Shown: piece by piece, positions 1,486-63,969 of the stretch
Layout: the number at the start of each line of letters is the position of its first letter
Position numbering within the stretch: position 1 is the stretch's first letter
Source: Catellatospora paridis
Lineage (GTDB): Bacteria > Actinomycetota > Actinomycetes > Mycobacteriales > Micromonosporaceae
Direction of reading: 5' to 3'
Assembly: GCF_009720365.1 (NCBI RefSeq)
Contig: NZ_WBZD01000048.1
Coordinates: forward strand, 1-64,000
DNA length: 64,000 bases
The notes under the pieces: model-generated
What the model was told of the DNA's origin: nothing
What the model saw: the letters and a program-made list of their open reading frames with translations, nothing else
The model's database searches: none
Translations under genes and position numbers: made by a program

Positions 1486-4400
1486 ATGACGTCCCGCACC
1501 CTCCCCGACCTGCTGGCCGCCCTCGCGGCGGCGCGACCCGGACATGTCGCGCTGCGCCTGGCAGGCGGGGAGGGGGCGGGGCCCACGGAACTCACCGCGG
1601 CGGCGTGGCACACCCGCGCCACGGCCGTCGGGCACGGGCTGCTCGGCAAGGGCGTCGCGCCCGGCGACCGGGTGGGCCTGGTGTTCGACGGCACGGACTG
1701 GCTCGACTACGCGGTCGCGTACGCGGCGGTCACCGGGATCGGCGCGGTAGGCGTGCCGTTGTCGGCGGCCTCGCCCGAGGCGCGGCTGCGGGAGCTGCTC
1801 GATCACGCCGGGGCGCGAGCCGTCGTCGGCGCCGGCGGCTGGGCCCTGGCCGAGCTGGACGCCGGTGACACGGCGCAGCTGCCGGTCACCGTCCGGCCCG
1901 GACAGCCGGCGCAGATCGTCTACACCTCCGGCACCACCGGCACGCCCAAGGGCGTCGCGGCGAGCCATGGCAGCCTCACGCACGGGCTCGACCCGGCGCG
2001 GCCGCCGCTGGCGCACTCGCGGCACGCGCTGCACGCGTTCCCGCTCGGCACCAACGCCGCGCAGACGATGCTGGTCACCGCGCTGGTCGCGCGCCCCACG
2101 GTGGTCACCATCGCGGCCTTCGACCCTTGGGCGTACGCCCGCGCCGCGCAGACACTCGGCGTCGGCACCCTGTTCCTGGTGCCCGCGACGGCGAGCGCGC
2201 TGCTGGAGGCGGGCGTCTTCGAGCGGTGCGACCTCGACGCGGTGCAACTGGTGTCGTGCACTGCCGCGGCCCTGCCGCCCGCGGTGGCCCGGGCGCTGGC
2301 GGAGGCGCTGCCGGAAGCCGTGATCGTCAACAACTACACGTCGACCGAGGCCGCGCCCGCGCATACCAGCATGGTCTTCGATCCTGAGCGACCCGCCTCG
2401 GTCGGCCGGGCCGAGGGCGGGGCGGAGCTGCGCATCCTCACCGCCGACGGCACCGTCGCCGGGCCGGGGGAGACCGGCGAGGTGTGGCTGCGCGCGGGGG
2501 ACGCGGTGCGGGCGTACCACGGCGACCCCACCGCGAGCGCCGCCGTGTTCCGCGACGGCTGGGTGCGCATGGGCGACCTCGGCTATCGCGACGCCGACGG
2601 CTACCTCTTCCTGGTCGACCGCGAGTCCGACCTGGTCAACGCGGGCGCGTACCGGGTCTCCACGCTGCGGGTCGAGGCGGCCCTGCACGAGCACCCGGCC
2701 GTGCTCGGCGCGGCCGTGCTCGGCCTGCCGCACCCGGTGATGGGCGCGACGGTCGCCGCCGCCGTCGAGCTGCGCGACCCGTCCGCGCTGGCGGGGCTGC
2801 GGGCGTTCCTCGCCGACCGGCTCGCGCCCTACGAGCTGCCGACCCGGATCGTCGCCGTGGCCGCGCTGCCGCGCAACGACGGCGGCAAGGTGCGCAAGGG
2901 CGCGCTGCGAGAGCTGTTCACGCAGGCCCCGGCCAGGGTCGCGCCGCGCACCCCGGCCGAGGTCGCGCTGGCCGGGCTGTGGCGCGAGGTGTTGCGGGTG
3001 CCCGAGGTCGGCGTGGGCGACGACTTCTTCGCCCTCGGCGGCGACTCGATGCGCGCCACCCACCTGGCCGCCCTTGCCGCCGCCCACTTCACGCGCGACG
3101 TCCCGGTCTCCCTCATCTTCGACACCCCCCTACTCGCCGCCCAGGCCGAACTCCTCTCGGCCGCCCCGCCCGGCGCGCCGGAGCCGGAGTGGGCCGCCGC
3201 GGGCGATGATCGCTGTTCCGGGTCGGAAAGTGACGCTGGACCCCAGGTTTCGACACCAGACGCCGATCACCAACGGCCAGGTGGGGAGATGCCGCTGGCG
3301 TCCACTCAGGAGAGCATGCTGGCCTGGATGTGGGCGACGGGGGAGCCTCGGGACGTCGGGCCGATCAGTGTCGGGATCAGGGTGCGGGATCAGCTCGATG
3401 TCGCGCTGCTGGAGCGGGCGTTGACCGTGGTGGCGGAGCGGCAGGAGGCGCTGCGGACCGTGTTCGACCGTGCTCCGGACGGGCGGCACCGGGCGCGGGT
3501 GCTCGACCACTGCCCGCCGGTGGTGACCGCCGTCGCGGCCCGCGACCTCGACCACGCCGGGCAGCTGTGCCGGGCCGATCGGGAAGGCGGCTTCGACACG
3601 GTACGCGGGCCGCTGGTACGGGCGATGGTCGCCACCGTCGGCCCCGACGACCACGTGCTCGGGCTGGCCGTGCACCATCTGGTCTGCGACGGCGCGTCGA
3701 TGGGGCCGCTGCTGCACGAGGTCGGAGCGGCGTACGCGGCGCTGCGCGGCGGCACCCCGCTGCCCGCCGCCGCACCGGGCACGCCGCTGCGCGACTTCGT
3801 CGCGTACACCCGGCAGCGCTGGCCGGCCACCCTGCCGCACTGGCGGCGGACGCTCGACGGCGCGCCCGCGCACCTGGCGCCGTTCCGCGGTCGCCGGGAG
3901 GCGGTCCGGCTGCGCAGCGCCGCGCTGGAGTTCCCGCTGCCCGGCACGCTCGGCGACGGGCTGCGCCGGGCCGCGGCGGCCCAGGGCGCGACCCCGTTCA
4001 TGCTGATCGCGTCGTGCTGGGCGGCGGCGCTGTCGGAACGCACCGGCACCGACGACATCGTGCTGATGTCCCCGGTGCCCGGCCGCACCCGGCCCGGCAG
4101 CGAGGCGCTGATCGGCTGCCTGAGCCAGTCGCTGCTGCTGCGGGTGGACACCTCCGGCGGCCCGTCCGCCGCCGAGCTGCTGGCCCGGACCCGGCGCACC
4201 GTCCTTTTCGCGCTGGACCACCAGCACTACCCGTTCGCCGAGTTCTACCTGCGGCACACCGGCGCGGCCTGGCTGCGGGTGGAGACCTGGGGCGGCCAGG
4301 CGCACCTGCCGGGACTGGAGTCGGAGTCGTTCGAGCTGCCCCGGGCGCTCGACGCGGACTGGCCCACGCCCGGGGGCCTGCCCGACCTGCAGGCGCCCGA

Positions 4401-4569
4401 GCTGGCCGTCGTCGAGCATCCGGACGGTTCGCTGGTCGCGCACCTGCTCTGGAACCACCACGCCTTCGACCGGTCCGAGATGGACGCCCTTGCCGGGCGG
4501 GTCGCCGAGCTGTTCGAGCACGCGGCACGCGAGCTCGCCCCCGCACCACCGCAGGAGGTCCCGCGATGA
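1486..4569 (+). CDS. Non-ribosomal peptide synthetase, A-PCP-C
   Basis: A 1027-residue synthetase. The adenylation domain (about 1-480) has YTSGTTGTPKGV, and NNYTSTEAAP replaces the usual NxYGPTE, a form nearer to acyl-CoA ligases. The end of the domain keeps the invariant Lys in GGKVRKG. The carrier domain (about 488-560) has LGGDS with phosphopantetheine Ser521. The condensation domain (about 600-1020) has an intact HHLVCDG (H730, H731, D735). Residues about 574-595, between carrier and condensation domain, are encoded by a 64-bp interspersed repeat. The gene overlaps the next one by ATGA, so the two proteins are translationally coupled and probably work as one line. The missing upstream C domain suggests it starts the chain. 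The substrate cannot be predicted with confidence. Confidence 0.9.
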   Translation: MTSRTLPDLLAALAAARPGHVALRLAGGEGAGPTELTAAAWHTRATAVGHGLLGKGVAPGDRVGLVFDGTDWLDYAVAYAAVTGIGAVGVPLSAASPEARLRELLDHAGARAVVGAGGWALAELDAGDTAQLPVTVRPGQPAQIVYTSGTTGTPKGVAASHGSLTHGLDPARPPLAHSRHALHAFPLGTNAAQTMLVTALVARPTVVTIAAFDPWAYARAAQTLGVGTLFLVPATASALLEAGVFERCDLDAVQLVSCTAAALPPAVARALAEALPEAVIVNNYTSTEAAPAHTSMVFDPERPASVGRAEGGAELRILTADGTVAGPGETGEVWLRAGDAVRAYHGDPTASAAVFRDGWVRMGDLGYRDADGYLFLVDRESDLVNAGAYRVSTLRVEAALHEHPAVLGAAVLGLPHPVMGATVAAAVELRDPSALAGLRAFLADRLAPYELPTRIVAVAALPRNDGGKVRKGALRELFTQAPARVAPRTPAEVALAGLWREVLRVPEVGVGDDFFALGGDSMRATHLAALAAAHFTRDVPVSLIFDTPLLAAQAELLSAAPPGAPEPEWAAAGDDRCSGSESDAGPQVSTPDADHQRPGGEMPLASTQESMLAWMWATGEPRDVGPISVGIRVRDQLDVALLERALTVVAERQEALRTVFDRAPDGRHRARVLDHCPPVVTAVAARDLDHAGQLCRADREGGFDTVRGPLVRAMVATVGPDDHVLGLAVHHLVCDGASMGPLLHEVGAAYAALRGGTPLPAAAPGTPLRDFVAYTRQRWPATLPHWRRTLDGAPAHLAPFRGRREAVRLRSAALEFPLPGTLGDGLRRAAAAQGATPFMLIASCWAAALSERTGTDDIVLMSPVPGRTRPGSEALIGCLSQSLLLRVDTSGGPSAAELLARTRRTVLFALDHQHYPFAEFYLRHTGAAWLRVETWGGQAHLPGLESESFELPRALDADWPTPGGLPDLQAPELAVVEHPDGSLVAHLLWNHHAFDRSEMDALAGRVAELFEHAARELAPAPPQEVPR
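3205..3268 (-). repeat. 64-bp interspersed repeat inside NRPS coding sequence
   Basis: Read on the minus strand it starts with GATCGGCGTCTGGTGTC and ends with GCGATCATC. A related element of the same length lies at 63906-63969, starting GATCAGCGTCTGGTGTC and ending GCGATCATG, with GGTCC at the same internal offset (27-31). Here it is translated in frame as the PCP-C linker. Confidence 0.7.
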
Positions 4570-63905: not shown

Positions 63906-63969
63906 GATCAGCGTCTGGTGTCATGATCTGCGGTCCGGCCGCAGATCATGACACCAAACGGCGATCATG
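63906..63969 (+). repeat. 64-bp interspersed repeat with 18-bp stem
   Basis: 63916-63933 pairs perfectly with 63939-63956 (5-nt loop). The unit starts GATCAGCGTCTGGTGTC and ends GCGATCATG; a related unit of identical length lies inside the first NRPS gene (3205-3268). Here it follows the YcnI-like gene and could also end transcription. The remaining bases to 64000 show nothing else. Confidence 0.7.

Follow-up and report, generated by a model that had tools for sequence, protein, structure and literature searches.

The window analysed here, a stretch of 64,000 nucleotides from the genome of the soil bacterium Catellatospora paridis (G000), carries a gene for an A-PCP-C nonribosomal peptide synthetase (NRPS) in which the linker between the carrier and condensation domains holds one copy of a palindromic repeat, and an intergenic copy of the same repeat lies elsewhere in the window. 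The features concerned are the following.

1486..4569, + strand: A-PCP-C nonribosomal peptide synthetase open reading frame, 1027 aa
residues 14-344 of this reading frame: AMP-binding domain
residues 396-468: AMP-binding_C domain
residues 495-556: PP-binding domain
residues 627-923: Condensation domain, covering profile positions 29-339 of 456
3169..3282, + strand: PCP-C linker, residues 562-599, which holds the 61-bp element
3208..3268, no strand: copy of the 61-bp palindrome that is translated in frame as residues 575-594, with 17 of 28 arm positions paired
63906..63966, no strand: intergenic copy of the same palindrome family, a strong hairpin, between convergent genes (as called by our own gene caller)

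In an AlphaFold2 model of the synthetase (mean pLDDT 80, pTM 0.59, built with 20 sequences), residues 562-599 form the longest stretch with pLDDT below 50, and the PCP-C linker is predicted to be disordered and length-tolerant. NRPS linkers bear on the swapping of modules, and the way in which such linkers gain length is rarely seen.

The preliminary description of this DNA had matched a 64-nt stretch encoding residues about 574-595 to a second stretch on the opposite strand, on the basis of similar ends and of a GGTCC at the same offset. These ends and this offset are correct, and positions 3205-3268 (+) and 63906-63969 (-) are identical at 45 of 64 positions without gaps. The location in the linker also stands, with the conserved unit now refined to the 61 bp, GATC...GATC, at 3208-3268 and 63906-63966, and hence to residues 575-594. 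The opposite orientation in itself says little, because the unit is palindromic. As a pair the two window copies are weak (E 0.04 or 0.007 in whole-genome searches, depending on the query), and it is the family that secures the match. With 3205-3268 as the query, 47 strand matches come up in the own genome at an E of no more than 10, and the strongest copy apart from the query itself has an E of 3.5e-9 and 80% identity. The arm pattern occurs 98 times with up to three mismatches, against 16 for a reversed control. Under a profile from which the window copy was left out, the 63906 copy reaches 60.1 bits and 3208-3268 reaches 47.5 bits (E 6.7e-14); no other place in the window exceeds 9.6 bits, and 20 dinucleotide-shuffled windows give at most 10.6.

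Copy number and gene context of the palindrome family

Applied to the own genome, a covariance model of the family (R1), built from 22 copies, returns at least 148 strand matches; these merge into at least 75 loci, and 60 of 75 copies are exactly 61 bp long. The approximate consensus is GATCGCYGTTTCGTGTC-N27-GACACGAAACRGCGATC; 83% of the arm cells in the 22 aligned copies are in standard pairs, and the outer two bases often pair too. Folded as DNA, the 64-nt stretch of the 63906 copy gives -27.3 and -28.2 kcal/mol, with z of -8.1 and -9.5. The earlier reading of the linker segment as a palindromic interspersed repeat is thus borne out genome-wide and beyond, since the family is present in all 11 Catellatospora genomes (the own genome and ten others searched, five of which reach the ceiling of candidates that the search scores). 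No match to it was found in G019, G020 and G028, three genomes of other genera that have an orthologous synthetase. Under stricter filters (E of 1e-6 or better), a search of 150 genomes of the bacterial family returned all 11 Catellatospora and seven of the 139 others (G070, G072, G074, G087, G094, G111 and G124), the latter with 2-12 strand matches each and a best E of 4e-13.

According to our own codon-usage gene caller, applied without annotation, the 75 loci listed comprise one genic, 39 tandem, 29 convergent and four divergent contexts, besides two contig ends. A second, threshold-based test also places a single locus of the 75, the 3208-3268 copy, inside a gene; the same gene caller puts the coding fraction of one 240-kb block at 89%. 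Among the 74 non-genic copies, 69 face the 3' end of a gene, at a median distance of 23 bp for these 69, and 64 have a stop codon no more than 60 bp away. Three of the 75 copies reach 2 bp into the end of a predicted gene; copies in tandem contexts are mostly (36 of 39) closer to the upstream stop than to the downstream start. The ratio of convergent to divergent contexts is 29:4 for the copies and 24:36 for the 134 gene pairs of one 240-kb block (74 of them tandem), a difference with a Fisher p of 7e-6 in which the gap filter of at least 60 bp applies to the background pairs but not to the element contexts. High-scoring copies from G007 (20), G008 (13) and G002 (7) behave alike, with none of the 40 in a gene, 25 in convergent and 14 in tandem contexts, and one with no context assigned. 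These features define a REP-like family of full-length palindromes that normally lie just downstream of genes. At least six T in 10 nt were found in only two of 150 flanks, so that the copies lack the T-tract of Rho-independent terminators; our guess is that the intergenic copies form mRNA 3'-end or bidirectional terminator-like hairpins. As a separate observation, two copies near contig ends (L028/L034; C23:124176 and C5:556800) have nearly identical flanks, which suggests that they are part of a longer repeat that broke the assembly.

Distribution among orthologous synthetases

The element is present in phase 0 in the synthetases of six species (G000, G003, C. sichuanensis G004, C. vulcania G007, C. 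coxensis G006 and C. methionotrophica G001), which upholds the earlier remark that the frame is kept. These six orthologues contain seven coding copies, all in the same frame and each of 61 bp, for C. sichuanensis has two, the second being part of a 96-nt in-frame tandem repeat with 82% identity (L077:3192-3383). The linker is without the element in five genomes of the same genus (G008, C. bangladeshensis G002, C. sp. KI3 G010, C. tritici G005 and G009) and in G019, G020 and G028; a profile search of the linkers returned no match in these eight orthologues at E up to 100. In the comparison that the preliminary description had called for, the element is absent from the linkers of less close relatives, and distant orthologues have other linkers that lack the repeat. 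As the genome also holds further copies, neither of the two contrary outcomes named in that description came about.

A tree built without the linker places the six carriers on one side of a single change, with support of 100/100, and all of 200 bootstrap trees (100%) likewise need a single change. Little of the branching order among the six can be resolved in this tree, and the branches leading to the outgroups are long. The distribution of the element fits a single gain. Linkers without the element are too diverged for the insertion junction to be read, and offer no clean empty site.

Evolution of the coding copies

Pooled pN/pS is 0.85 in the 20 codons of the element and 0.30 in the gene outside the linker (15 non-independent pairs of the six species, with single pairs at about 0.4 to 3 over these few codons). 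The variable sites of the coding copies are distributed over the three codon positions as 11, 10 and 10, with no third-position bias, and the coding copies of G000 and G003 differ at 11 of 61 sites, eight intergenic pairs differing at 6-15. Together with the low pLDDT of the linker, these results describe a tolerated spacer and support the view that the coding copy evolves almost neutrally, having been inserted and then tolerated.

A role for the element in the synthetase, be it that of a linker peptide under selection or of an mRNA hairpin tuning expression within the gene, would amount to true domestication and appears improbable. Such a role would be congruent with the element having stayed at exactly 61 bp in seven copies and six species as the linker around it varied in length, a constancy that could reflect some constraint, with its duplication in C. 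sichuanensis and with the 17-22 of 28 arm positions that still pair in the coding copies. It is opposed by the pooled pN/pS and the even spread of variable sites, which also leave the earlier term "domesticated" unsupported, by a mean pairing in the seven coding copies (19.4 of 28) no better than that of the intergenic ones (21.8 of 28 over 59 copies of exactly 61 bp, 15 of other length having been dropped), and by the hairpin of the window coding copy, which is unremarkable for a sequence of such composition (z about -1). We draw nothing from these pairing values as to a decay of the hairpin in coding copies, since all seven descend from a single insertion.

Compensatory change between orthologous intergenic copies was also considered, but the evidence is not convincing. 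Three doubly changed pairs kept their pairing against 1.2 expected in shuffles (maximum 6), in a count covering eight of the 11 shared pairs; of the three set aside, two had copies that were truncated or differed in length, and one lacked an alignment. In the 22 aligned copies the percentage paired, the number of cells changed on both sides and the covariation score all exceed 500 of 500 shuffles, which is not decisive because related copies can give such scores without structure; for the same copies, the pairs changed on both sides are matched by 80 of 500 shuffles and the further pair types by 314 of 500.

Stability of the copies

Within a 240-kb block syntenic between G000 and G003, 11 of the 13 G000 elements have a counterpart in place (one of them truncated in G000 and one, where G003 has a longer stretch, judged by coordinates alone) and two are absent from G003, with junctions that are not clean excisions. 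Seen from G003, 11 of 12 elements in the block are shared and one is without a verdict. Most elements of the block were therefore in place before G000 and G003 diverged. None of 75 copies is flanked by a direct repeat of 3-9 bp, and a 2-bp match occurs in ten of them; the GATC inside the unit may itself be the duplication, in which case the net insert would be 57 bp and thus in frame by itself.

The Y1 transposase family PF01797, the sole transposase family searched, occurs in four of seven genomes (three in G001, one in G008, one with a stop in G003 and two partial in G000); none was found in G007 and G010, each with many elements, or in G019, and no 61-bp element lies within about 1.5 kb of the three PF01797 loci examined. 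PF01797 does not track the repeat, and the idea of a Y1 transposase as its mover gains no support from this search. With copies mostly fixed between two species, no target-site duplication of at least 3 bp and no tracking Y1 transposase, the qualification of the element as mobile finds no backing here.

A second palindrome in the same linker

The orthologous synthetase of G019, which belongs to another genus of the same bacterial family, has a different palindrome at the corresponding place.

L266:14148-14237: palindrome in the PCP-C linker of the G019 synthetase

It reads CCAAGACCGCCGCAACTCTTCAAGAGTTGGT...ACCAACTCTTCAAGAGTTGCGGCGATCTTGG, with arms that are 94% complementary and separated by 54 nt, and lies in the reading frame without stops. 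The 16-mer AACTCTTCAAGAGTTG has 565 exact occurrences in G019, 282 on one strand and 283 on the other, and one per strand in G000; it was not found in G008, G020 or G028, and controls gave no hits. G019 is the one genome of its genus in the comparison. Over 115 kb of it, taken from the surroundings of listed hits and of the synthetase, the copies form 20 groups, which divide into 11 convergent, five tandem, one divergent, two without assigned context and one genic, the last being the copy in the synthetase linker. As judged by sequence, then, each of the two genera has a copy of its own palindrome family in the same linker.

It is tempting to regard the PCP-C linker as a recurrent landing site for the dispersed palindromes that a genus happens to carry, one that the Catellatospora GTTTCGTGTC family and, independently, the AACTCTTCAAGAGTT family of the other genus would have entered, with subsequent tandem growth in one species, and we consider this possible at somewhat less than even odds. 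If true, dispersed palindromes would be a general source of NRPS linker length, with a bearing on module recombination. An older insertion from a single palindrome superfamily, predating the split of Catellatospora and G019 and lost at least twice, would make the two linker elements homologous; it would account for both families having a copy in this linker and for the AAGATCGYCG with which many copies of both begin. We deem it unlikely, however, given that the cores differ and that each linker copy matches the family of its own genome, that linkers of non-carriers gave no match, and that the tree would require a gain and no fewer than two losses where two gains suffice.

An inverted-repeat scan of 54 linker rows (without the row of the window; some species, C. 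vulcania among them, present twice and at least one row mis-sliced) scored 25 for G019, 20 for C. vulcania, 8-10 for the other carriers and up to 11 for non-carriers. Inverted repeats were rejected as a general marker of such linkers, since the scan misses degraded copies.

Origin of the linker element

The reading we favour, with a probability of about 0.83, is that a 61-bp intergenic palindrome entered the PCP-C linker once, in the common ancestor of the six species, and has since been tolerated as a neutral spacer. Catellatospora genomes carry REP-like palindromes, normally just 3' of genes. One of these, presumably an intergenic one that was copied or transposed, would have entered the linker of an already unsplit A-PCP-C synthetase with a net change that kept the reading frame. 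The roughly 20 extra residues would have been neutral because the linker is disordered and length-tolerant, leaving the enzyme function of the synthetase probably unaffected; drift would have followed, and one later tandem duplication of the element segment in C. sichuanensis.

As copies of the family usually follow closely on stop codons, the coding element might instead have been intergenic at first and have become enclosed in the gene through a fusion of separate A-PCP and C genes. This is very improbable, for the orthologues without the element, in five species of the same genus and three other genera, are already single unbroken A-PCP-C reading frames, which indicates that the gene was unsplit before the element arrived. 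Chance or an assembly artefact, for which the mere 45 agreeing positions of the two window copies might be invoked, can be dismissed in view of the E-value obtained with the profile lacking the window copy and of the same element in six genomes.

The gain of the element can be assigned to a branch of the tree and adds a spacer of about 20 residues between carrier and condensation domains with no visible selection, the orthologues with and without the element providing a natural experiment. The proposal that such repeats offer a route by which NRPS linkers change holds to the extent that one linker is shown to have grown, and the second family in G019 adds weight to it; its mobile and domesticated components lack support.

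Comparison with known systems

In the open-licence literature we found neither a description of the 61-bp family nor a report of palindromes situated in NRPS linkers, nothing on NRPS linker length with insertion or on Micromonosporaceae intergenic palindromic repeats and, by titles, nothing related to NRPS, REP and linker combined. Intragenic palindromes are already known, and the repeated hits on one NRPS linker are the unusual side of the present case. The family resembles REPs, described in PMC3733652 as mostly intergenic palindromes of many copies and 20-40 bp, with GTAG and CGTC tags, located between unidirectional or convergent genes and downstream of coding regions; a length of 14-40 nt is given for E. 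coli REPs in PMC12306157. The 61-bp family shares with them its palindromic nature, its many copies and its extragenic location 3' of genes (74 of 75 and 40 of 40 copies non-genic), but its unit is longer and, in the PF01797 search, no RAYT was seen to go with it. Intragenic REPs are known in several species, and their neutrality in flexible linkers has already been suggested (PMC3733652). MITEs are likewise short inverted-repeat elements without coding capacity, but the 61-bp copies lack a flanking duplication of at least 3 bp. The U-less (I-shaped) or bidirectional terminators of high-GC bacteria, as presented in PMC8269248, resemble the family in being hairpins that lack T-tracts and follow closely on stop codons, in many cases between convergent genes; the 61-bp family differs from them as a dispersed repeat of conserved sequence.

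The linker copy itself may be compared, by description, with the Rickettsia palindromic elements (RPEs; Ogata et al. 2002, as cited in PMC3733652), protein-coding palindromes that are dispersed and also lie in frame within genes thought to encode working proteins. Like these, the 3208-3268 copy is an in-frame insertion absent from orthologues; R. conorii has many intragenic copies in one genome, whereas here they amount to one of 75 in the own genome and none of 40 elsewhere. The present case thus extends Rickettsia-type translated palindromes to the large, high-GC genomes of actinobacteria, in a family that is almost kept out of genes and whose one exception found fell at a tolerant place.
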